Positions 310-64,000 of a stretch of 64,000 nt of DNA are shown one piece after another; positions within the stretch are counted from its first letter, which is position 1, and the number at the start of each line of letters is the position of its first letter. The position numbers and the translations under genes are program-made. The notes beneath the pieces are model-generated. The model made no database searches and was not told the DNA's origin. It saw nothing but the letters and a program-made list of their open reading frames with translations. This DNA is from Streptomyces spectabilis. GTDB taxonomy: Bacteria; Actinomycetota; Actinomycetes; Streptomycetales; Streptomycetaceae. Where the stretch lies: NCBI RefSeq assembly GCF_008704795.1, contig NZ_CP023690.1, forward strand, positions 8,442,501 to 8,506,500, in the 5' to 3' direction.

Positions 310-3300
310 AGGAGGGGACGGCGGCGGGGGAGCCGACCGGTCGGCCCGAGCTGTCCTTCGCCCAGGAGCGGCTGTGGTTCCTCGACCAGCTCTCACCGGG
401 GGAGTCCGGCTACCTCACGCCGTTCAGCCGCCGTCTTGACGGCCCGGTGGACGCGGACCTGTTGGAGCGCGCGCTGCGGGCGGTCGCGGAGCGCCATCCG
501 GTGCTGCGGTCACGGATCGACGATGCTTCGGGGACACCGGTTCCCGTGGTCGAGGCGGCCGCGACGGTCCGCCTGGAGCGCGTCGACCTGAGCGGTGCGC
601 CGGACCCGGAGCGCGCCGCCGAGGCCGCCGTGGCGACGATGCTGAACACGCCCATGGACCTGACGGCGGCGCCGTGGCTGCGGGCCGCGCTGTTCACACT
701 GGGCGAGGGCAGCGCCCTCTTCCACGTCCAGGTGCACCACATCGCCTTCGACGGGATCTCCCGGGGCCTGTTCGAGCGGGAGCTGTCGGCGCAGTACCGG
801 GCCCTGGCGGGGGGCCGCCCGGCACTGGAGCCCCCGCCAGGGCAGGACTACGCCGCCCACGCGGCCCGGCAGCGGGCGGCGCTCGGACCCGCCGAGCGCG
901 AGGAGTTGCTGGCCCAGTGGCGCACCGCCCTGGACGGCGCGCCGCACGTGCTCGAGCTGCCCTCGGACCGCCCGCGCCCGGCCAGGCCGGGCCCGCGGGC
1001 GGGGCGGGTGGACTTCGTGGTCCCCGAAGAGGTCACCGCCGCCCTGCACCGCGTCGCGCAAGCGCGACGGACGACCCTGTTCTGTGTCGGCCTGGCCGCC
1101 TACCAGCATCTGCTCGGCCGGTACGCGGATGCCCGGGACGTGCTGGTGGGGGTGCCGTTCGCGGGCCGCGAGGACCCGGAGACGGAGCAGATCATCGGGT
1201 TCTTCACGCACTCCGTGCCGCTGCGCGGGGAGTTGGCCGGGTCACCGTCGCTCGACGCACTGACCCGGCAGGCGCGGGACCGGGTGCTCGAGGCGATGGA
1301 CCTCCAGGAACTGCCGCTTGAGCAGCTCGTGGACGGGCTCGGCGTGACCCGCGAGGCCAACCGCAATCCGCTGTTCCAGCACTGGTTCGACCTGGCGGAC
1401 CCGCAGTGGGACCGGCCTGCGCTGATCCTGCCCGGCGTTCGGATCCGGCCGGTCCCGGTCACCGAGACCACCACCCGCTTCGACACCGAACTGCATCTGC
1501 GTCCCGCGGGAGCGGGTCTGGCGGGACGGCTCCTGTACTCGGCGGAGCTGTTCGACGAGGAGACGGCCGCGGGCCTTGCCGGACACTATGCCGCGCTGCT
1601 CGCCGCGGCGGCCGCGGAGCCGGGGCGACCCCTCGACTCGATCCCGCTCACCGGGGCGGACGAGAGCGCGCGACTGATCGACCTGGGCACCGGGCCTGCC
1701 GTGCGGCGCGGCCCGGCGACGGTGGACGCGTACGTGGAGCGCACGGTGGCCCGCGTTCCGGACGAGGTGGCCGTCCGCTCCGGCGAACGGCGGCTGACCT
1801 ACCGTCAGCTCGACGAGCGGTCACGGCGGATCGCCCGGGCGCTGCGGGAGCACGGGGCCGGGCCCGAGCAGGTGGTCGCGGTCTGTCTGCCGCGCGGGCC
1901 CGAGCTGGTCTGCGCCCTGCTGGGCGTCGTGCGGTCGGGGGCGGCCTACGTGCCGGTGGATCCGGAGCTTCCGGCCGAGCGGATCGCGTACCTGCTGCGC
2001 GATTCCGGCGCGATGGCGGTGCTCGGGGACGCCGGGGCCGAGAGCCTCACCGAGGTGACCGGGCACCCCCTGGTGCGCGTCGACCACTTCGTGGACGGCG
2101 ACGGCCCGCACGGCGGGGCGGCGCCGTCGGCGACCGGGACCGGGGCACAGGACCTGCCGACGGCGCTGGATCCCGACCGCCTGCTGTACGTCGTCTACAC
2201 CTCCGGCTCGACCGGGCTGCCCAAGGGTGTCGGTGTCACCCACCGCTCCTTCACCCGGCTCCTCGACTGGCATCTCGACCGCTACCCCGTGGCGTCGGGA
2301 GCGGCCACGGCGCAGACGGCCGGAGTCTCCTTCGACGCCGCGGCCTGGGAGATCTGGCCGGCCCTTGCGGGCGGTTCGCGCCTCGAGGTGTGCTCGGCGG
2401 ACGAGGTGCGCACCCCGTCGCGCCTGCTCGCGCGCCTGGAGGAGGCGGGCGCGGAGTCGGCTTTCGCGCCCACCGCGTTGGCGGAACTGCTGATCCGCGA
2501 GCCGCTCGGGCAGCGGACCGCGCTGCGGCGGCTGCTGACCGGTGGGGATGTGTTCCGGCCGCGTGCCGGGGACGCGCCGGGGGTCGCTGTGGTCAACCAC
2601 TACGGCCCGACGGAGAACACCGTCGTCGCCACCGCCACCGACGCGCTCACCCGTCCCTGGCCGGGCCGCTCCATCGGTCGGCCGATCGCCGGGGTGCGGG
2701 CCTACGTGCTCGATGACCGGCTGCACCTGGTGCCCCGTGGAGTGCGCGGCGAGCTGTGGCTCGGCGGGGCCCTGGTGTCACGCGGCTACCTGGGGCGGCC
2801 CGGCCTCACCGCCGAGCGGTTCGTCCCGGATCCGTTCGCCGCGGAGCCGGGGGCGCGGATGTACCGCACCGGGGACCTGGTGCGGTGGTCGGCCGACGGC
2901 TCGCTGGAGTTCCGGGGCCGGGCGGACGGGCAGTTGAAGATCAGCGGTTACCGGGTGGAACCGGCCGAGGTCGAGGTGGTGCTGCTGCGCTGCCCGGGCG
3001 TGCGGGAGGTGGTCGTGACCGCGGCCGCGGGCCCCGACGGAACCCCGATGCTCGTAGCCCACCTGGTGTGCGACGCTCCCGGCCCGAGCGACGCGGAGCT
3101 GCGCTCCCAGCTGCGCCGCCAGGTGCCCTCGTACCTGGTGCCGTCGGTCTTCGTCCGGCTCGACGCGCTGCCGCTGACCGTCACGGGCAAGATCGACCGC
3201 CATGCGCTGCCCGCGCCCTCGGAGGGGGCCCGCGCGGCGGTGGCCCCGCGGACCCCGGCCGAGTCGGCGGTGCACGCCCTGTGGCTGGAGGTGCTGCCCG

Positions 3301-54619: not shown

Positions 54620-54829
54620 TTACGAGTAGTTTATCGGGCGCTTCGGCGCGAAGGCGTGGGCGCGCACTGCGGTGACCAGTGCATTCTCGCAGAAGTGGTG
54701 TAGACCATACTCCTGGTGCAACACCCAGTCAACGTCTTGTCTTTCTATTAGGGGCGCGAGTAGATTCCCCCGCCAAGCACCGCCGGAATTCCTGCCGTTG
54801 CACATGGTGAAATCCTTGGCGTTGCACAT
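54620..54829 (-). CDS. Small hypothetical protein in a low-GC island
   Basis: A 69-residue open frame (MCNAKDFTMCNGRNSGG, ending AFAPKRPINYS) with no recognised family, in a stretch (about 54560-54980) much poorer in GC than its surroundings. The start region is duplicated: TTTCAACATGTGCAAC and TTTCACCATGTGCAAC lie 24 bp apart, giving two in-frame ATG-TGC-AAC starts. The protein has Cys in positions 2 and 10 and HHFC further on. It could be a real small gene or a remnant. The remainder of 54506-54977 shows no other gene. Confidence 0.35.
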   Translation of the reverse strand: MCNAKDFTMCNGRNSGGAWRGNLLAPLIERQDVDWVLHQEYGLHHFCENALVTAVRAHAFAPKRPINYS

Positions 54830-54837
54830 GTTGAAAT
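54797..54837. repeat. 17-bp direct repeat, 24 bp apart
   Basis: GTTGCACATGGTGAAAT (54797-54813) and GTTGCACATGTTGAAAT (54821-54837) differ at one base. They overlap the two possible starts of the small minus-strand gene. Confidence 0.8.
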
Positions 54838-54977
54838 GGTCTCAGATGGTAGGACGAGGATGGCGGAACCTGAGCTTCCTGTGCTTCTCTGAGCCAAGCC
54901 GAGCGAGACTCCAGGGCACCACGGACGACCCCGTGAGCGCTTCCGTTTCTTTTCCTTTTGCTTTGCGGGGAGGGTTC

Positions 54978-56354
54978 GTGATTGCTGTGCACACGCATGG
55001 GCGGCGGCGCTTACACGTCACGCGCTCCGCCCGCACCGCCTGTGCGCAGTGCCGGCAGTCCGCGGTGAAGCGGGACGCCCAGCGGCGGGACGAGCGGCTT
55101 TTACGAGTGGCTTTCATCATTTCCAGCAGCGGGGACTGGATATTCCGCTTCGCCCTGCCCGTACTCGTGCTCCAGATCACCGGATCGGCGGTCTCCACGG
55201 CGCTGACCTATGCGATCGAGTTCGTGCCGTTCGTCGTCATCGGACTCTTCAGCGGAGTTGTCGCCGACCGGGCCGACCGACGGCAATTGATGATCGCGTG
55301 CGATGTCGTGTCCGCGGTGATCGTGGCCGGGATCGGGGTGCTCTGCCTGATCGATCCGCCGGTGTTCCTGGTGATGGCGGCGGCCTTTCTGCTGGGCTGC
55401 GTACGGCCGTTCTCGTTCCCCGCGTTCCAGGGATTCATCACCGAGCGGGTCGCCGAGGAACGGCGGGCCTCGATGAACGCCTGGGTCCAGGGCGCGGACG
55501 GCACCCTCGGCATGCTCGGCCCCGTCGCCGGGGTCGCGGTCGTCACGCTCCTCGGGCCGACCGCGGCGAGCTTCGCCAACGCGGCCTCGTTCGCGGTCTC
55601 CGCCCTGCTGATCGCCGCCACCGCCGCCGTCGCCGCGGGGCGGCGCCTGCGGACCTCGTTCGCCGCGGCCTGCCGCTCGCTCGGGCCCGACTCCGCGGCG
55701 GCGCTGCGCATGGTCGTGCGGGAGCGCGCCCTGTTGTGGGCCACGTTCCTGCTGACCCTCGCCAACCTCACCTTCCCCGCGGCGGCGGCCAACCTCGTCT
55801 ACATCGTGGCCGGGCCCGACGGGGACGTCCCGGCCTCGCTCGCGGTGGTCGCGGCGGCACAGGGACTCGGGGTCGCGCTCGGCGCCGCCGCGGCACCCCT
55901 GCTGCTGCGCAGGTTCTCGGCGGGCACGCTCATGGGTTCGGCCATGGCCGTGAAGGCCCTAGCCCTGACACTGCCCGCGTTCCAGCCCGGCATCGGCGCG
56001 CTGACCGTGTGCTGGTTCGTCGTCGGCACGACGACCTCCACGTTCATCGTGCCCTGGCGGACCTATCGGCAGGGCGCGGTCGATCCGCAATTCCTCGGCA
56101 GGGTGGTGGGGCTGCAGCGGGCCATTCCCTTCGCCGCCATCCCGGTCAGTTCGCTTCTCGGCGGCTGGCTGGTCGTCGAGTTCGGTGTCACCGCGCTGTT
56201 CACGGCCATCGCCGTCATTCAGTTCTTCGTCTGGCTCGGTACTCGTTTTTCGCCATTGGGGAGATCCGGCTCTTCGCGCGTCGAAGTGGCCGGGCCCCAG
56301 GTCATTCCTTCGCCGCAACCGACGTCACTACCGAGTCGAACAGGCAGGAATTGA
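54978..56354 (+). CDS. MFS transporter
   Basis: A membrane protein of 458 residues from GTG 54978 with about twelve hydrophobic segments. The Arg/Asp loop between helices 2 and 3 (GVVADRADRRQLMIACDV) is the MFS signature. Conserved downstream blocks are VQGADGTLGMLGPVAGVAVV, ASFANAASFAVSALLI and FLGRVVGLQRAIPFAAIPVS, typical of enterobactin-exporter-like (EntS-type) carriers. A cytoplasmic leader rich in His, Arg and Cys (VHTHGRRRLHVTRSARTACA) precedes the first helix. It opens the second NRPS cluster and could export its product. GGGGAGG lies just before the chosen start. Confidence 0.87.
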   Translation: MIAVHTHGRRRLHVTRSARTACAQCRQSAVKRDAQRRDERLLRVAFIISSSGDWIFRFALPVLVLQITGSAVSTALTYAIEFVPFVVIGLFSGVVADRADRRQLMIACDVVSAVIVAGIGVLCLIDPPVFLVMAAAFLLGCVRPFSFPAFQGFITERVAEERRASMNAWVQGADGTLGMLGPVAGVAVVTLLGPTAASFANAASFAVSALLIAATAAVAAGRRLRTSFAAACRSLGPDSAAALRMVVRERALLWATFLLTLANLTFPAAAANLVYIVAGPDGDVPASLAVVAAAQGLGVALGAAAAPLLLRRFSAGTLMGSAMAVKALALTLPAFQPGIGALTVCWFVVGTTTSTFIVPWRTYRQGAVDPQFLGRVVGLQRAIPFAAIPVSSLLGGWLVVEFGVTALFTAIAVIQFFVWLGTRFSPLGRSGSSRVEVAGPQVIPSPQPTSLPSRTGRN

Positions 56355-56439: not shown

Positions 56440-57240
56440 ATGCCACTATTCTTCGAGGGCAGTGGGACGGTTTCGGCGCAGCGGGAGCACTTCACGGACC
56501 TGGGCTACCTGGTCCTGCCCGCCCTGCTGCCCGGATCGCTCCTCGACCGGCTCGTGCCCGAGGTGGACCGCTGGGTCGACGACGGGCTGCGGTCCCGCTC
56601 CATCGCCGCCTGCCTCGATCCGGGCCCCGACCACGATCCGCCGCCCGTCATGGAGCTGGAGTTGCCCGCCCATGGCGAACTCATCACCCACGAACCCCTG
56701 CTGCGGGTCATAGCGGACCTCATGGGCGCGCCCTTCGTCTTCCACCATCTGCACAGCGACCGGCACAATCCCGGCGTGCCCGGCAAGCCGTGGCACCACG
56801 ACCACGAGCCCAACGACGCGGGCGACCCCGACCTGTCGATGGTGCACGCGCTGCACTACCTCGGCGGCCTCGACGGCACGGTCGGCAACCTCACCGTGGT
56901 GCCGGGCTCCCACCACCGGCCCTGGGCCAAGTCGGCGCTCGCCCACCTCGGCACCACCGAACTCCCGGGCGAGGTGGTCATCGACGAGCTGCCGCCCGGT
57001 TCGACCGTGGTCATCAACTCCGCGCTGCTGCACGCCCGCAGGCCCGCGCCGAGCCCGCCCGGCAGCCCGGCCCGCTACTTCGTCGACGCCTCGTACTGCC
57101 AGACCGGGGCGCGTTGGCGGCCGGTGAAGCCGTACTGGCGGCACATGCTCCGTACGGCCCGCACCCTCGATCTCGACGGCGGGCGCTGGCCGGAGCTGTT
57201 CGCGGAGCGGCACTTCACCGAGTACGCCAGGCACGCGTGA
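56440..57240 (+). CDS. Phytanoyl-CoA dioxygenase (PhyH)-family oxygenase
   Basis: A 266-residue Fe(II)/2-oxoglutarate oxygenase. It starts FTDLGYLVLPALLPGSLLDR, as PhyH proteins do. The metal triad is His119-x-Asp121 (KPWHHDHEP) and His198 (ALLHARRP), with Arg200 or Arg201 to bind 2-oxoglutarate. LTVVPGSHHRPW is the family loop. It lies 85 bp after the transporter and 15 bp before the DUF6309-like gene, so it is probably in one operon with the synthetase. It likely hydroxylates an amino acid or the NRPS product. Confidence 0.88.
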   Translation: MPLFFEGSGTVSAQREHFTDLGYLVLPALLPGSLLDRLVPEVDRWVDDGLRSRSIAACLDPGPDHDPPPVMELELPAHGELITHEPLLRVIADLMGAPFVFHHLHSDRHNPGVPGKPWHHDHEPNDAGDPDLSMVHALHYLGGLDGTVGNLTVVPGSHHRPWAKSALAHLGTTELPGEVVIDELPPGSTVVINSALLHARRPAPSPPGSPARYFVDASYCQTGARWRPVKPYWRHMLRTARTLDLDGGRWPELFAERHFTEYARHA

Positions 57241-57255
57241 GAAAGGACCGCACGG

Positions 57256-57840
57256 ATGCAGATCATCGGCCCCACCACCTTCGACGAGGTACGCGCCCTC
57301 TTCCACCGGGACCATCCCGTCACCCGCGCCCACGAGGTCAACACCAACGAGGACGCGGACAGCGCGCTGCGCCTGGCCGACGCGACCTTCGGCACCTGGG
57401 CCACGATCCGGCTGTCCCGCGCCGACGTCCGCTCGGTGCTCCTGCCCTGGCACCTGAGCTGCGGCGGCGGCCGCGAGCTCGTCCCGCGCACCGGCCTCAC
57501 CGTCGGCCAGGCGGCGGACCTGCTGCGCGCGCACGAGGCGGAGTTCACGGCGGCCAACCCCGTCTGCACCGGCAAGATCGCCCGGTTCCGCACCGCCGCC
57601 TTCTCCTCCATCTACCTCACCACGCGGCCGATCCCGCACGACCACTACGCGGACCTCCCCACCGACGAAGGGCTTGTCCACCTCGACGGCCTGCACCGCC
57701 TGCTCGCCTGGGAGCTGGCGGGACGCCTGTCGCCCGGCGCGGAGCTGACCGCCCTCATCGCCGGTGACCTCACCCCGCTCGCCCCGACCGCCGCGAGCGA
57801 CAGCACACCGAACGCCACCACCGGAGGTCCACGCCCATGA
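57256..57840 (+). CDS. DUF6309-like protein
   Basis: A 194-residue protein: TFDEVRALFHRDHPVTRAHE at the N terminus, WHLSCGGGRELVPRTGLTVG, and ANPVCTGKIARFRTAAF. LVHLDGLHRLLAWELAGRL near the C terminus resembles the ParB-like core (DGxHRL). I recall similar proteins as DUF6309, found next to biosynthetic genes, with unknown activity; this name is from memory. Its stop overlaps the synthetase start (ATGA), so it is made together with the A-T-E-reductase protein and may assist it or edit its product. Confidence 0.65.
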   Translation: MQIIGPTTFDEVRALFHRDHPVTRAHEVNTNEDADSALRLADATFGTWATIRLSRADVRSVLLPWHLSCGGGRELVPRTGLTVGQAADLLRAHEAEFTAANPVCTGKIARFRTAAFSSIYLTTRPIPHDHYADLPTDEGLVHLDGLHRLLAWELAGRLSPGAELTALIAGDLTPLAPTAASDSTPNATTGGPRP

Positions 57841-60800
57841 CGCGAGCGATGCGTTCCCCCGCCTCGCTGCCCGACGCCACGCTGCCCGGCCTGCTCGTCC
57901 ACCACGCCCTGACCCACCCGGACAGGACCGCCCTCAGCGACGGGACCCGCACCCTCGACCACCGGCAACTCGACACCGCGGCCGGGCACATCGCGGCCCG
58001 CCTCGCCGGACTCGGCACCGCGCGCGGCGACCGGGTCGCGCTGTTCGGCCCCCGGGACGCCCGCATGTGCGCGCTGCTGCACGGCGTCCTGCGCGCGGGC
58101 GCGGCCGCCGTCCTGGTCGACCCGGGGTGGAGCCCGCGCGACGTGCACCGGCGCCTGGACGCGGTCAAGGTGCGGCACGCCCTGACCACCGCGCGGGACC
58201 TGCGCGCGCCCGAGCCGTACCGCACCGAGGTCGTCGACGTCGACGCGCTCGCCGCGAGCGCGCCCGTCGCGCCCGACGGCACACAGGGCTGCGCGCCGGA
58301 CGACCTCGCGTACCTGTCCTTCACCTCCGGATCCAGCGGGGAGCCGAAGGCCGTCGCGGTCACCCACGCCAACGCCGTGCACTACGCCCTCGCCCTGCGC
58401 GACCGGCTCGGCCTCACCGACGCCGACGCGCCCCGCGTCGCCCACGTCACCACCCTGGCCGCCGACCTCGGCCACACCTCCTGGCTGCTCGCCCTCGCGA
58501 CCGCCGGTTCGGTGCACGTGGTGCCCGACGCGACCGCGCGGGACCCGGAGGCGTTCTGGGCGGACCTCGGCGCGGCCGGGGTCTCGGTGCTCAAGACGAC
58601 GCCGTCGCACCTGACGGCCCTGCTCGCCGGGCGGCCGTCCGACGCACCCGCCCTGGACACCGTCCTGCTCGGCGGCGAGGCGCTGCCCCGGTCGCTCGCC
58701 GCGCGCCTGCTCGACGAGCGCATAGCCGCGCGCGTGGCCAACCACTACGGTCCGACCGAGACCACCGTCGGCGCCACCTGCTTCCTCGCCGCCACCGCGG
58801 CCGACCTGCCCGCGGACGAGCCCACCGTGCCCATCGGCACCGCCATCGGCGAGGTCGAACTGCGGCTCGTCCCCGACACGCGCGCGCCCGTGACGCCCGA
58901 CCCCGACGCCGCGGAGGGCGAGCTGTACATCGGGGGACGCGGCGTGAGCGCCGGATACTTCGGGCGCCCCTACGAGACCGCGCGCCGCTTCATCGCGCAC
59001 GCGGGACGGCGCATGTACCGCACCGGCGACGTGTGCCGCCGCCGAGCGGACGGCAACCTCGTCTTCGTCGGCCGCTCGGACCGCCAGGTCAAGGTCCGTG
59101 GCTTCCGCGTCGACCCCGCCGAGATCGAGCGGGCCATGGAGGAGTTCCCGGGCGTCGGCCAGGGCGCGGTGATCGTCCGCGAGACCCCGGCGGGCAGCCA
59201 ACTCCTGGCCGCCGTACGCCTGACCGGCGGGCGCGACGAGGACGGCACGCTCGCCGCGCTCCGCTCCCACCTGCACGACCGGCTGCCCGGCTACTCCGTG
59301 CCGCAGCCCGTCCTCGCCCTGCCGGAGTTCCCCTTCGGCGCGAACGGGAAGCTCGACCGCGCCCGCCTGAGCGACATCGTGTCCGGCCTCATCGAGTCCC
59401 GGGCCCGGACCGCGCGGCCCGCGCCCGCCACCGCGGGGCGGCCCGCCGACCGCTCCGCCGCGTCGCTCGCGCACGCCCTGTGCGAGCTGTGGGCGGACGC
59501 CCTGGGCCTGCCCGTCGTCGACCCGCACGCGGACGTGCTGAGCCTGGGCGGGGACTCGATCCTCGCGATGCGCACCATCGCGTTCCTGCGCCGCCGCGGC
59601 CACCGCGTCGCGTTCGAGGACTTCTACGAGCACCCGACGCCCACCCGGCTCGCGGCGGTCGCCGCCTCGTCCCGGCGGAGCGCACAGCCGCGCGCCGAGA
59701 CCCTGGCGGCCGAGCCGCGCCACCTGGCGCCCGCCCAGCGGTGGCTGTTCCGCCAGCCCGTCGACGAACCGCGGCACTGGAACCAGTCCGTGCTCCTTCG
59801 CTGCCGCGAGCGCGTGGACGCCGGAGCCCTTGCGCGGGCCGTCGAGGCCGTGCTGCACCGGCACACGGCGCTGCGCAGGCCGCTCGGTCCCGGCGGCCTC
59901 GGCCCGCTGCGGCCCGCGGGCGACCTGGACGCGGTGAGCCACTCACGGCTGCGGCCGGGCGATCCGCTGCCCGAGACGGTCGGGGCGCTCTGCACCGAGC
60001 TGCAGCGCAGCCTCGACCCGGAAGCCGGGCGCCTGCTGAGGGTGCACCGGTTCGCGGGCGGACCGGGCGTCGACGACCGGCTCGCGCTGATCGCCCACCA
60101 CCTCGTCGTCGACGGCCTCTCCTGGCGCATCCTGCTCGACGACCTCGCCGCCGCCTACCGGGCCGCGCTCACGGGGCAGCGGGCAGACCTGGCGCCGACG
60201 GCCGACTTCTACGCCTGGGCCGCCACCACGCCCCGGACGGCCGCCGCGCACCCGGCGGTCGCGCCCCGGCTCCCGGTGGACGACGCCACGTCGAGCACCG
60301 AACCGGCGACCCTGGTGTGGAGCCTCGACGAGCGGGCGACCGGCCGTCTTCTGGAGCGCCACGGGGGCGCGCAGCGCCTGGAGGCGGTGCTGCTCGCGGC
60401 CTTCGCCGACGCCACCCTCGCCTGGAGCGGGCAGCGGAGCCTCGGCGTGGAGGTGGAGACCCACGGCCGCGGGACCGACGGCGACGACGGCCAGTACCTG
60501 GACACGGTGGGCTGGTTCACCGCCGTCAAGTGGCTGGCCGTCGACGCGGGCGGGACGGCCGAAGGGCCCGAGCGCACCGCCCGGGTCGAGGACCTCGTAC
60601 GCGCGGCGCCCCAGCTGCCGATGGACGTCGAAGGGGCGCGCCCCGAGGCGGCGTTCAACTTCCTCGGCACCTTCCGGCTGCCCGACGAGCCCTGTCTGGA
60701 CTGGTCGGTGGCGGACGAGCAGGCCGGGGCCGCCCGCTGCGCCACCGGGGACTCGCTCTACCGGCTCCGTCTGACCGCCCGGATCGTCGACGGGCGCCTG

Positions 60801-62066
60801 GTGACCGACCTGGTCTACGCCTGGCCGCGCCTGTCGCACGAGAGCGCGGAGCGGATCGTCGCCTCGTTCTCCCGCGCGGTGGCCGCCGCCGCGGACACCG
60901 AACCGGCCGACCACGCGCGGGCGGTGGTGTCCACCTCCGGCCAGCTGGTGCACACCGGCATCGCTCCCGCGCGCGGACACTGGACGGTCGTGCGCGAGCC
61001 GGTGCCCGTCCTGCTGACCGGGGCGACCGGCTATCTGGGCGGGCACGTGCTCACCGAACTGGCGGCGCGGGGCGCCCGCGTGACCTGCCTGGTCCGCGGC
61101 GACAACGATGCCGAGGCGGCCCGGCGGCTCGGCGGCGCCGACGTGATCGCCGGTGACATCACCGCGGACGGCCTCGGCCTGACCCCGGCCGGACTCGCCC
61201 GCGCCCGCACGGCCCGGGTCGTCGTGCACGCGGCCGCGGACGTCCGCCTCGTGGCCTCGCCCGCGGACCTCGAGCGGACCAACCACACCGCGGTGCGGCG
61301 GCTGCTCCACTGGATCGACGCCCACACCCCGGCGGCCCGCTTCCACCACGTCTCCACGCTGGCCGTCTCGGGCGAGGTGGAGGGGCCCGCGCGCCGCTTC
61401 AGCGAGGCCGACCTGCGCATCGGGCAGAGCTTCCGCACCCCGTACGAGAAGGTGAAGTTCCACGCGGAGGAGACCGTGCGGGCCTGGGCGGCATCCGGCC
61501 GTCAGGCCTACGTCCACCGCAGCGGCCACATCGCGGCGCACAGCAGGACCGGCGCGTTCCAGCGCAACGTCGCGGACAACCGGATCTACCAGACCGTGCG
61601 CGGCTACGTCCTGGCCGGGGCGGCGCCGCGCAGGCCGTCGACGACGTTCGAGTTCTCCCACGTGGACACGGTGGCGGCGGGAATCGCGGCGCTCGCGACC
61701 CAGCCGCACGCGGCGCCGGGCGTCTACCACGAGGAGTCGCCGCACACCGTCGCCCACGACGACCTGGTGGCGTGGATGGTCCGGCACGGCTATCCCATCC
61801 GGCTCACGGACGACGCCACGTTCGCCGCGGCGCTCGCCCGCGCGGAGCGGCACCATCCGACCATGGCCAGGCTCGCCTCGACCTGGTCCCAGCTCGGCGA
61901 CCGCAACGTCGTCGTCGACAGCGCGTGGACCCAGTCCGTGCTCGACCGGCTCGGGGTGCGGTTCGCCGAGCCGACCGCGGAGTGGTGGTCGGCCGCGCTG
62001 ACCTGGGCCGCCGACGCCGGGTTCCTGCCGCACCGGTCCCCGGTCCCGGCCGACCCGGCCCGCTGA
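57837..62066 (+). CDS. NRPS with domain order A-T-E-reductase
   Basis: A 1409-residue synthetase with no C domain. The adenylation domain has SFTSGSSGEPK near 160, NHYGPTETT near 302, YRTGDVC and GRSDRQVKVRGFRVDP. Its pocket aligned to GrsA reads D-L-T-K-L-G-H-V-G-K, close to published aspartate and asparagine codes. The T domain carries LGGDS (Ser574). An epimerisation-type C homologue follows: LAPAQRWLFRQP, HHLVVDGLSWRIL (754 on), DTVGWFTAVKW and FNFLGTFRL. The end is a thioester reductase: GATGYLG near 1062 for NADPH and the Tyr-x3-Lys YEKVK near 1203. The predicted route is load, epimerise, then release as an aldehyde, which the adjacent aminotransferase could aminate. Confidence 0.93.
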   Translation: MTRAMRSPASLPDATLPGLLVHHALTHPDRTALSDGTRTLDHRQLDTAAGHIAARLAGLGTARGDRVALFGPRDARMCALLHGVLRAGAAAVLVDPGWSPRDVHRRLDAVKVRHALTTARDLRAPEPYRTEVVDVDALAASAPVAPDGTQGCAPDDLAYLSFTSGSSGEPKAVAVTHANAVHYALALRDRLGLTDADAPRVAHVTTLAADLGHTSWLLALATAGSVHVVPDATARDPEAFWADLGAAGVSVLKTTPSHLTALLAGRPSDAPALDTVLLGGEALPRSLAARLLDERIAARVANHYGPTETTVGATCFLAATAADLPADEPTVPIGTAIGEVELRLVPDTRAPVTPDPDAAEGELYIGGRGVSAGYFGRPYETARRFIAHAGRRMYRTGDVCRRRADGNLVFVGRSDRQVKVRGFRVDPAEIERAMEEFPGVGQGAVIVRETPAGSQLLAAVRLTGGRDEDGTLAALRSHLHDRLPGYSVPQPVLALPEFPFGANGKLDRARLSDIVSGLIESRARTARPAPATAGRPADRSAASLAHALCELWADALGLPVVDPHADVLSLGGDSILAMRTIAFLRRRGHRVAFEDFYEHPTPTRLAAVAASSRRSAQPRAETLAAEPRHLAPAQRWLFRQPVDEPRHWNQSVLLRCRERVDAGALARAVEAVLHRHTALRRPLGPGGLGPLRPAGDLDAVSHSRLRPGDPLPETVGALCTELQRSLDPEAGRLLRVHRFAGGPGVDDRLALIAHHLVVDGLSWRILLDDLAAAYRAALTGQRADLAPTADFYAWAATTPRTAAAHPAVAPRLPVDDATSSTEPATLVWSLDERATGRLLERHGGAQRLEAVLLAAFADATLAWSGQRSLGVEVETHGRGTDGDDGQYLDTVGWFTAVKWLAVDAGGTAEGPERTARVEDLVRAAPQLPMDVEGARPEAAFNFLGTFRLPDEPCLDWSVADEQAGAARCATGDSLYRLRLTARIVDGRLVTDLVYAWPRLSHESAERIVASFSRAVAAAADTEPADHARAVVSTSGQLVHTGIAPARGHWTVVREPVPVLLTGATGYLGGHVLTELAARGARVTCLVRGDNDAEAARRLGGADVIAGDITADGLGLTPAGLARARTARVVVHAAADVRLVASPADLERTNHTAVRRLLHWIDAHTPAARFHHVSTLAVSGEVEGPARRFSEADLRIGQSFRTPYEKVKFHAEETVRAWAASGRQAYVHRSGHIAAHSRTGAFQRNVADNRIYQTVRGYVLAGAAPRRPSTTFEFSHVDTVAAGIAALATQPHAAPGVYHEESPHTVAHDDLVAWMVRHGYPIRLTDDATFAAALARAERHHPTMARLASTWSQLGDRNVVVDSAWTQSVLDRLGVRFAEPTAEWWSAALTWAADAGFLPHRSPVPADPAR

Positions 62067-62148
62067 ACCGCCCCGCACCACGGCCCCCTGCGGGCCGCAC
62101 CCTCATCCGGCCCGCCCGACGGGCCACCGAATCCTAGGAAGTGACGCG

Positions 62149-63405
62149 ATGCCCCAGCTCTCCCCGGTGCTCCAGCAGGCCACGCCCGTGGTCGCCACCC
62201 GCGGCGAGGGGATGTACCTGTACGACGCCGACGACCGTCGCTACCTCGACTTCACCGCGGGCGTCGGCGTGACCAACACCGGCCACTGTCACCCCCGGGT
62301 GGTCGAGGCCGTGCGGCAGCAGGCGGGACAGCTCATCCACGGCCAGTACACGACCGTCATGCACGACCGGCTGCTCACGCTGACCGAGCGCCTGGGCGAG
62401 GTACTGCCCGCGGGCCTGGACGCGCTGTTCTACCTCAACTCCGGCAGCGAGGCGGTGGAGGCCGCGCTGCGGCTCGCCCGGCACGCCACCGGGCGGCAGA
62501 ACGTGATCGTGCTCGACGGGTCCTTCCACGGGCGCACCATGGGCGCGGCGGCGATGAGCACCGCGGGCACCCGGTTCCGCGCCGGGAGCGGCCCGCTGAT
62601 GCCCGGTGTCGCGGTGGCGCCGTTCCCGCACGCCTTCGCGCTCGGCCTCAGCGAGGAGGCGGCCGTCGCACACGCCCTGCGCGGCCTCGACCACGTCCTC
62701 GCCACCGTGAGCGCGCCCGAGGAAACCGCCGCGATCTTCGTCGAACCCGTCCTCGGCGAGGGCGGTTACGTGCCCGCGCCGCCCGGCTACCTCGCGGGGC
62801 TCAGGGAGCGCGCGGACCGGCACGGGATCCTGCTGGTCCTCGACGAGATCCAGACCGGCTTCGGCCGCACCGGGCGGTTCTGGGCCCACGAGCACTCCGC
62901 CGGTGTCGTCCCGGACATCCTCATCACCGCCAAGGGCCTGGCCAGCGGCTTCCCGCTGTCGGCGATCGCCGCGTCCGTCGAGCTCATGGGCCGGGCCCGC
63001 CCCGGCTCGCAGGGCGGGACCTACGGCGGCAACGCCGTGGCCTGTGCCGCGGCCCTCGCCACCCTCGACGTCATCCGCGACGAGGGCCTGGTGGCCAACG
63101 CCGCCGAGCAGGGCCGCCGCCTCGCGGACGGGCTGCGCAAGACCGCCGCCGGCGTCCCGGCCGTCGCCGATGTGCGCGGCACCGGCCTGATGCTGGCCAG
63201 CGAGTTCCGCGGCCCCGACGGCTCGCCCGACGCCGCCCTGGCCCGCGCCGTGCAGCAGGCCGCCGCCGAGCGGGGCCTGCTCTTGCTGACCTGCGGGGTG
63301 CACGGCAACGTCGTACGGATGATTCCGGCGCTCGTCGTCACCGCCGAGCAGATCGACGAGGCGCTGACCCTGTGGTCCGACGCCGTGGCCGCGGCCGTCC
63401 GGTGA
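62149..63405 (+). CDS. Class III PLP-dependent aminotransferase
   Basis: A 418-residue aminotransferase of the 4-aminobutyrate/ornithine type. Landmarks are FLNSGSEAVEAALRLARHAT-like (LNSGSEAVEAALRLAR), DGSFHGRTMGA, the signature LVLDEIQTGFGRTG (230 on) and the PLP Lys262 in ITAKGLASGFPL. It starts 82 bp after the synthetase and, with it, suggests reductive release of an amino aldehyde followed by transamination to a vicinal diamine. It could instead supply a non-standard amino acid precursor such as a diamino acid. A primary-metabolic role is less likely here. Confidence 0.92.
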   Translation: MPQLSPVLQQATPVVATRGEGMYLYDADDRRYLDFTAGVGVTNTGHCHPRVVEAVRQQAGQLIHGQYTTVMHDRLLTLTERLGEVLPAGLDALFYLNSGSEAVEAALRLARHATGRQNVIVLDGSFHGRTMGAAAMSTAGTRFRAGSGPLMPGVAVAPFPHAFALGLSEEAAVAHALRGLDHVLATVSAPEETAAIFVEPVLGEGGYVPAPPGYLAGLRERADRHGILLVLDEIQTGFGRTGRFWAHEHSAGVVPDILITAKGLASGFPLSAIAASVELMGRARPGSQGGTYGGNAVACAAALATLDVIRDEGLVANAAEQGRRLADGLRKTAAGVPAVADVRGTGLMLASEFRGPDGSPDAALARAVQQAAAERGLLLLTCGVHGNVVRMIPALVVTAEQIDEALTLWSDAVAAAVR

Positions 63406-63462
63406 CGGCTCCGCACAGCGGAACCCCCTGCCCGTACGCCTCTCGAAAGGACTGAGGACGCC

Positions 63463-64000
63463 ATGACCGGAACCACCATCGACGACATCGGCTGGACCAG
63501 CGACTACCTGGAGTCCGCGCGCGACGTGTGGTCGCTGTCGGTCTCCGACGACGACCGGCGGCTGCTGTGGCCGGACTCCCTCACCGGGCGCTGGGGTGCG
63601 GGCGAGGAGGCGTACACCACCGTGCGCTCGTTCATCGCCAACAGCCTGGACGCCGTGGGCTTCGTGAACGTGCGCAACGTCATCTCGCCGGACGCCTCCG
63701 ACGACGACCTCATCACCAGTCTGTCCCGCGTCGTCGACGAGATCGGCGGGGCCATCCCGCAGAACGCGCAGGGCGACCTGTGGACCGTCCTGCGCGACCG
63801 CGACGGTGACGGCGCCACCGAACTCGGCTTCCACTGCGATACCTGCGACCTGCTCGTCCTGCTCTGTCTGCGGCCCGCGGCGGACGGTGGCGGCACCACC
63901 AAGCTGGCCAGCGCCCGGCACGTGTACGACATCATCGCGCGCGAACGCCCCGACGTGCTGGCCCTGTTGCAGGAGGAGTGGCGCTTCGACCGCAGCGGCC
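63463..64000 (+). CDS. TauD/clavaminate-synthase-like dioxygenase (3' end outside window)
   Basis: The first 179 residues of an Fe(II)/2-oxoglutarate oxygenase; the gene runs off the window. The HxD motif is in LGFHCDTCDLLVLLCLRP (His124, Asp126), as in TauD/TfdA and clavaminate-synthase-like enzymes. The third ligand His and the Arg lie beyond the end. VGFVNVRNVISPDASDDDL is the family N-terminal motif. ATG 63463 follows GAGGAC. It is the second oxygenase of this cluster and probably hydroxylates an amino acid or the peptide product. Confidence 0.85.
   Translation, partial: MTGTTIDDIGWTSDYLESARDVWSLSVSDDDRRLLWPDSLTGRWGAGEEAYTTVRSFIANSLDAVGFVNVRNVISPDASDDDLITSLSRVVDEIGGAIPQNAQGDLWTVLRDRDGDGATELGFHCDTCDLLVLLCLRPAADGGGTTKLASARHVYDIIARERPDVLALLQEEWRFDRSG

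Follow-up and report, generated by a model that had tools for sequence, protein, structure and literature searches.

In a 64,000-nucleotide stretch of the Streptomyces spectabilis genome (bases 8442501-8506500 of a single 9.8-Mb contig; hereafter, the window), a four-domain synthetase and the class III aminotransferase encoded beside it form the core of a conserved operon whose product is probably derived from (R)-3,4-diaminobutyrate, or 3-amino-GABA (GABA, 4-aminobutyrate). The synthetase (57837..62066, plus strand, 1409 aa) is ordered as adenylation (A), carrier (T), epimerisation (E) and reductase (R) domains, and the GABA-aminotransferase-like enzyme (62149..63405, plus strand, 418 aa; Pfam Aminotran_3 1.6e-119) starts 82 bp after its stop codon. 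In the route that we propose, L-aspartate would be activated by the A domain, loaded onto the T domain and converted by the E domain to the D-aspartyl thioester; the R domain would release this as an alpha-amino aldehyde, (R)-3-amino-4-oxobutanoate (3-amino-succinic semialdehyde), which the neighbouring aminotransferase would aminate to (R)-3,4-diaminobutyrate. Two Fe(II)/2-oxoglutarate oxygenases of the PhyH and TauD types, a short-chain dehydrogenase/reductase (SDR), a DUF6309 protein and, in most copies, a methyltransferase would act on either the diamine or a pathway intermediate. An (R)-configured product is expected because D-aspartate is (R) and the change from the alpha-carboxylate to CH2-N leaves the priority order intact. 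The domain order, the catalytic motifs, the conservation of the operon and the family placements are observed directly, and from them we infer the chemistry, its stereochemical course and the sequence of tailoring steps. A first-pass annotation of the same DNA had already proposed loading, epimerisation, aldehyde release and transamination; this core is now backed by the motifs, the adenylation code, the kinship with GABA aminotransferases and a two-gene relative (locus L157, described below), while its asparagine branch is disfavoured.

The domain order, adenylation code and 82-bp gap given by that annotation were confirmed. Pfam placed AMP-binding at residues 22-375 of the synthetase (3.5e-68), PP-binding at 547-607 (8.3e-13), a single condensation-superfamily domain at 630-1020 (1.4e-24) and NAD_binding_4 at 1060-1281 (5e-30, over the cut-off). 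The NCBIfam model AA-adenyl-dom reached 318.4 bits against a cut-off of 317.4, and Thioester-redct (TIGR01746) stayed under its curated cut-off (146.6 vs 213.35 bits). The condensation-superfamily domain contains HHLVVDGLSW, ETHGR and TVGWFT, which we take to be epimerase-type motifs; since it is the only match to this superfamily, the synthetase has no separate condensation domain, as had been noted before. The R domain carries the nucleotide-binding motif GATGYLGG. Among 18 rows chosen for diversity, the E-domain residues H754, H755, D759, E874, H876, G877 and R878, the R-domain residues T1174, Y1203 and K1207 and the carrier serine S574 were invariant (18/18).

A search of 5.8 billion proteins gave 3164 relatives of the synthetase among 7990 candidates scored. 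The 120 that were listed, from 92% down to 33% identical, come from streptomycetes, Nocardiopsis, Nocardia, Amycolatopsis, mycobacteria, Micromonospora and others, and 119 of them contain the AMP-binding, carrier, condensation-superfamily and reductase families, the exception (P0102, 846 aa) being partial. In a plasmid collection searched at E<=1e-100 the single synthetase match was from Rhizobium. This A-T-E-R protein (L196:7590-11813; NZ_CP071629.1, Rhizobium leguminosarum plasmid p3) has the code DLTKVGHIGK and adjoins a plasmid-borne serS gene and two genes of the nonribosomal peptide synthetase (NRPS) type.

NRPS-type genes are abundant in the genome of the window (121 AMP-binding matches), and the synthetase could in principle be an ordinary loading or extension module whose aminoacyl group is taken over by a condensation domain encoded elsewhere. 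This seems extremely unlikely, as the reductase domain ends the protein and no other AMP-binding match lies closer than about 55 kb on the upstream side or about 108 kb on the downstream side. The first-pass annotation had itself allowed for a condensation partner downstream; the operon proteins and the downstream genes scanned gave no superfamily match besides the E domain, the scan being confined to these and not genome-wide.

The ten-residue code of the synthetase is DLTKLGHVGK. When it was aligned with the 120 listed of the 3164 relatives (121 rows), DLTK[LIV]GH[VI]GK was found in 120 rows and DLSKIGHVGK in one, and the residue at code position 322 was histidine in 121/121. We take DLTK-x-GH-x-GK to be an aspartate code; asparagine codes have Glu in place of His at position 322. 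This supports the loading of aspartate, not asparagine. The two codes are similar, both amino acids had been named in the first-pass annotation, and the loading of asparagine would lead to 3,4-diaminobutyramide; we consider this very unlikely because, besides the invariant histidine, the GABA-like kin of the aminotransferase imply a free carboxylate, which GABA-type aminotransferases expect. Asparagine was thus set aside on the Asp-type His322, and of the two products named earlier, 3,4-diaminobutyrate or its amide, the acid stands through the aspartate-type code and the amide is disfavoured.

Among proteins of solved structure, the aminotransferase scores best against the 4-aminobutyrate aminotransferases PuuE and GabT, and its K262 was invariant in 23 rows. 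The GABA aminotransferase model TIGR00700 stayed below its curated cut-off (379.8 vs 506.65 bits), and we therefore call the enzyme GABA-aminotransferase-like and not GabT. 3-Amino-4-oxobutanoate is succinic semialdehyde with an added 3-amino group, just as 3,4-diaminobutyrate is 3-amino-GABA, so that the proposed substrate suits an aminotransferase of the GABA type.

The nearest paralogue family was surveyed in 199 Streptomyces genomes (E<=1e-130, at most nine candidates scored per genome): 43 had a match, and 40 carry a paralogue, 65-71% identical, outside the operon. We opened the paralogue loci of nine of these 40 genomes, most of them high in the list, at 16 kb, and that of a 72% identical copy in Nocardiopsis flavescens at 18 kb. 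All ten contained a homologue of succinate-semialdehyde dehydrogenase (SSADH), at no more than 0.5 kb in eight and at about 2.9 kb in the other two; the identity of this homologue was taken from one member, for which TIGR01780 was the best family at a score below its cut-off (583.6 vs 646.35 bits). With flanks of 1.5 kb, SSADH was in view at 11 of 16 paralogue loci (L132-L147). The GabT-SSADH pair is thus the nearest paralogue family of an operon enzyme whose proposed substrate is 3-amino-succinic semialdehyde, but the pair is catabolic and the operon enzyme lies beyond a supported branch. In a 42-row tree, a branch (100/99) separated 17 gabT-type sequences from the operon enzymes, and the L157 aminotransferase stood between the two (90/87); the bootstrap was not fully settled and the outgroup was long, and we claim no direction. 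Twelve near-fixed differences separate the operon aminotransferases from the gabT-type paralogues.

Besides the window, 23 distinct synthetase-bearing operons were compared, with duplicates and cut loci left out. Eight were found through the synthetase (at least eight, as the generic patterns used make no census) and fifteen through DUF6309. PhyH, DUF6309, TauD and SDR were present in 23/23, the aminotransferase in 22/23 (all except L011) and the methyltransferase in 20 (all except L091, L093 and L096), and the order PhyH-DUF6309-synthetase-aminotransferase-TauD-SDR was kept in 22 of the 23. DUF6309 was also found in all eight operons identified through the synthetase. Because it is kept in other genomes, the gene set is not a chance assembly. 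The synthetases reach genomes of Kitasatospora, Streptomyces and Nocardiopsis; an independent search with the reductase part in 246 Streptomyces genomes (eight candidates scored in each) gave five matches, namely the window, three of the compared operons (L091, L096 and L097) and genome G069. The synthetase, the aminotransferase and an Fe(II)/2-oxoglutarate oxygenase on either side had been recognised in the first-pass annotation; DUF6309, the SDR, the methyltransferase and the membership of the oxygenases in the operon had been missed.

Two kinds of locus divide this gene set. At L157, in G069, a synthetase (55% identical) adjoins an aminotransferase (79%), and PhyH, DUF6309, TauD and the operon methyltransferase have no match there; the SDR is the one remaining operon gene with a counterpart, at 26% identity. 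At L120:7778-10783, PhyH, DUF6309, TauD and SDR are present and synthetase, aminotransferase and methyltransferase are absent. In the L120 genome (97% complete), aminotransferase copies do not exceed 43% identity, and a search for the synthetase at E<=1e-140 found none (150 of 214 candidates scored). Since L157 has both and L120 has neither, synthetase and aminotransferase appear more closely linked with one another than with the remaining genes.

A further fifteen intact loci, class 2 (L087, L088, L094, L095, L098-L104, L123-L126), combine PhyH and DUF6309 with a GSAM-like aminotransferase and have no synthetase; a divergent SDR occurs in 14 of them (not in L104). Their aminotransferase scored above the cut-off of PRK00062 (428.6 vs 398) and below that of GntE (395.5 vs 525), belongs to a different subfamily and is about 30% identical to the operon enzyme. 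An assignment as HemL was rejected (TIGR00713, about 401 vs 527.3 bits, below the cut-off), and the genome that encodes it, G094, has a separate HemL. DUF6309 occurs in 19/392 Streptomyces genomes, in 19/200 across the family and in 1/396 across the phylum, each count including the genome of the window; the 392-genome set comprises seven synthetase operons, twelve class-2 loci (L090 fragmentary) and one broken copy, and G066 has both classes. At L105 (G175:C56), the DUF6309 copy is broken into two overlapping fragments.

The class-2 loci, which pair PhyH and SDR with an aminotransferase in the absence of a synthetase, would fit a different scheme, in which the synthetase makes an aminoaldehyde or amino alcohol that is the substrate of the tailoring enzymes, and the aminotransferase comes in only afterwards, using a ketone formed by an oxygenase and the SDR (hydroxylate, oxidise, transaminate). 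The L011 operon of Nocardiopsis flavescens, which has no aminotransferase, points the same way. We regard this scheme as unlikely: the class-2 aminotransferase is of another, GSAM-like subfamily, the operon aminotransferase has GABA-type omega-aminotransferases as its relatives, and at L157 it stays beside the synthetase where PhyH and TauD are unmatched.

Several further observations weigh against the proposed route. Class 2 and L120 have PhyH, DUF6309 and SDR genes without a synthetase; these genes form a set of their own, which may act on something other than the diamine. The presence of DUF6309 in 15 of the 23 operons follows from its use as the search query. The missing aminotransferase of L011 belongs here as well; that it is kept elsewhere in the genome was considered and rejected, because the nearest copy (72%) sits on the gabT side of the tree. 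At L008:10001-14453 the synthetase frame is interrupted, the longest open reading frame (ORF) being 958 aa, with a match that covers the whole protein. Within the 121-row alignment the first E-domain motif varies (e.g., HHLVVDTISW in six rows), and two rows have gaps at ETHGR. Reduction by R domains can also proceed to the alcohol. For the aspartate-type A-T-E-R protein of Rhizobium, none of the genes annotated in the stretch shown encodes an aminotransferase. As for the paralogues, five of the 16 loci with 1.5-kb flanks had no SSADH in view, that of L134 lying 2.9 kb away (L150).

In contrast to the window operon, the gene run at L157 (L157:2738-15796) includes a carnitine-acyltransferase homologue (PF00755 1.2e-92) and two S-adenosylmethionine-dependent methyltransferases. 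The acyltransferase homologue has CPT2 as its best solved relative and retains the His of the FEHS.GD motif. The first methyltransferase weakly resembles sarcosine/dimethylglycine N-methyltransferase (81.4/550 bits), and its best solved relative is MitM, with O-methyltransferases also listed. Upstream lie genes for a 108-aa protein without a Pfam match that looks carrier-like on inspection, for an acyl-AMP ligase and for a CmlS-type halogenase above the model cut-off, as well as the SDR-like stretch. There is no carnitine-acyltransferase gene in the operon of the window, and its genome gave no match at E<=1e-15 (3 of 20 candidates scored). A search for a second locus of the L157 type gave such matches in 44/392 Streptomyces genomes, 30-35% identical outside G069 (three scored per genome, hence a lower bound).

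Emeriamine (aminocarnitine), a compound of fungal origin, has an (R)-3,4-diaminobutyrate skeleton whose terminal nitrogen is trimethylated. It thus shares its carbon skeleton with the product that we propose, although the carnitine-acyltransferase homologue belongs to L157 and not to the operon of the window. The gene content of L157 suggests a product of the aminocarnitine type; an acyl-aminocarnitine is our most economical guess, based at this one locus on methylation and the carnitine-acyltransferase relative. Tentatively, and at somewhat less than an even chance, we propose that synthetase and aminotransferase form a portable cassette that would supply (R)-3,4-diaminobutyrate to at least two pathways: that of the window operon and that of L157, where trimethylation of the terminal amine and acylation of the other amine by the carnitine-acyltransferase relative, perhaps with an acyl group chlorinated by the CmlS-type halogenase, would give acyl-aminocarnitines, bacterial counterparts of the emeriamine class. 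Emeriamine is described as a natural product that inhibits fatty-acid oxidation (PMC11154567).

Amination of an aldehyde released by an NRPS is a known principle. Myxochelin is the product of a siderophore assembly line. For myxochelin B, two sources put forward the hypothesis that the aldehyde from an R domain is aminated by the stand-alone pyridoxal-phosphate (PLP) enzyme MxcL (PMC3870968, PMC5878181); the pairing of an NRPS aldehyde with a stand-alone PLP enzyme is common to both systems, whereas myxochelin is not a single-residue building block. In the ham cluster for fragin and valdiazen of Burkholderia cenocepacia, HamD (A-T-R) and the aminotransferase HamG are suggested to act through reductive release to an aldehyde and its conversion to an amine (PMC5878181). 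Fragin shares with the present system a free-standing A-T-R synthetase and the suggested step from aldehyde to amine, which would give a vicinal nitrogen pair; it differs in that an E domain does not figure in its description, in its diazeniumdiolate chemistry and in being acylated by a starter condensation protein. Compared with fragin, the window operon is set apart by its aspartate-type code, its E domain and a different set of tailoring genes. The traits shared with fragin and myxochelin, a terminal R domain with Thr/Tyr/Lys and an adjacent aminotransferase with a catalytic Lys, were found in the operon, the adjacency in 22 of the 23 compared. In an incomplete literature search we recognised no paper describing this operon, and as far as that search shows, the aspartate/epimerase version, the GABA-aminotransferase kinship, the conserved operon and the carnitine-type link are new.

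If the proposed route is true, it would define, at the level of genes, how a single four-domain protein and an aminotransferase turn aspartate into a chiral vicinal-diamine amino acid, and the pair would be useful as a biocatalytic cassette. The route would also place DUF6309 in a pathway, and it would open the biosynthesis of aminocarnitine-type inhibitors of carnitine acyltransferases to experimental tests. Kitasatospora, Streptomyces and Nocardiopsis may share a metabolite that has so far gone unrecognised.

All of the tailoring genes lie on the plus strand. The upstream oxygenase (56440..57240, 266 aa) matches Pfam PhyH barely over the cut-off (4.8e-5); H119, D121 and H198 are invariant in 40 aligned rows from both operon classes, and we take H119-x-D121 and H198 to be the likely metal ligands. 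A sequence search against the PDB gave no relative at E<=1. The downstream oxygenase (63463..64302, full-length Pfam TauD match 1.8e-26), which runs past the end of the window at 64000, has H124, D126 and H255 invariant in 25 rows, and its best solved matches are 7n7v ("predicted hydroxylase") and FrbJ. It stayed below the cut-off of two betaine-type dioxygenase models, TmpA (40.1/400 bits) and TIGR02409 (gamma-butyrobetaine/trimethyl-substrate, 33.9/414.75).

The DUF6309 protein (57256..57840, 194 aa; Pfam DUF6309 1.6e-75), whose ORF shares 4 bp with that of the synthetase, has an invariant HxDGLHR motif resembling what we take to be a DGxxR-like motif of SerK and SbnI. These free-serine kinases are described as having a ParB-like fold that serves amino-acid metabolism (PMC5120207, PMC12704722). 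DUF6309 shows a resemblance to the ParB/sulfiredoxin fold that is weak and only structural, and the protein is possibly a small-molecule kinase; a literature search on DUF6309 found no paper.

Beyond the end of the window follow the SDR (64299-65054, homologue in all compared operons) and the methyltransferase (65059-65823). Typing the latter as an N- or O-methyltransferase was abandoned, its structure model having a mean pLDDT of 46.5, and its best PDB sequence matches, to a UV endonuclease at about 1e-3, were taken as spurious. At the other end, an MFS exporter gene (54672..56354, plus strand, longest ORF; Pfam MFS_1 2.4e-20, residues 147-364 matched) precedes PhyH; its real start probably lies downstream of 54672, and a homologue stands in the corresponding place in 3/23 synthetase-bearing operons (L003, L007 and L092). 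A group of AMP-binding matches lies at the beginning of the window (1737-2792) and immediately ahead of it (8433-8442 kb of the genome), about 55 kb from the synthetase.

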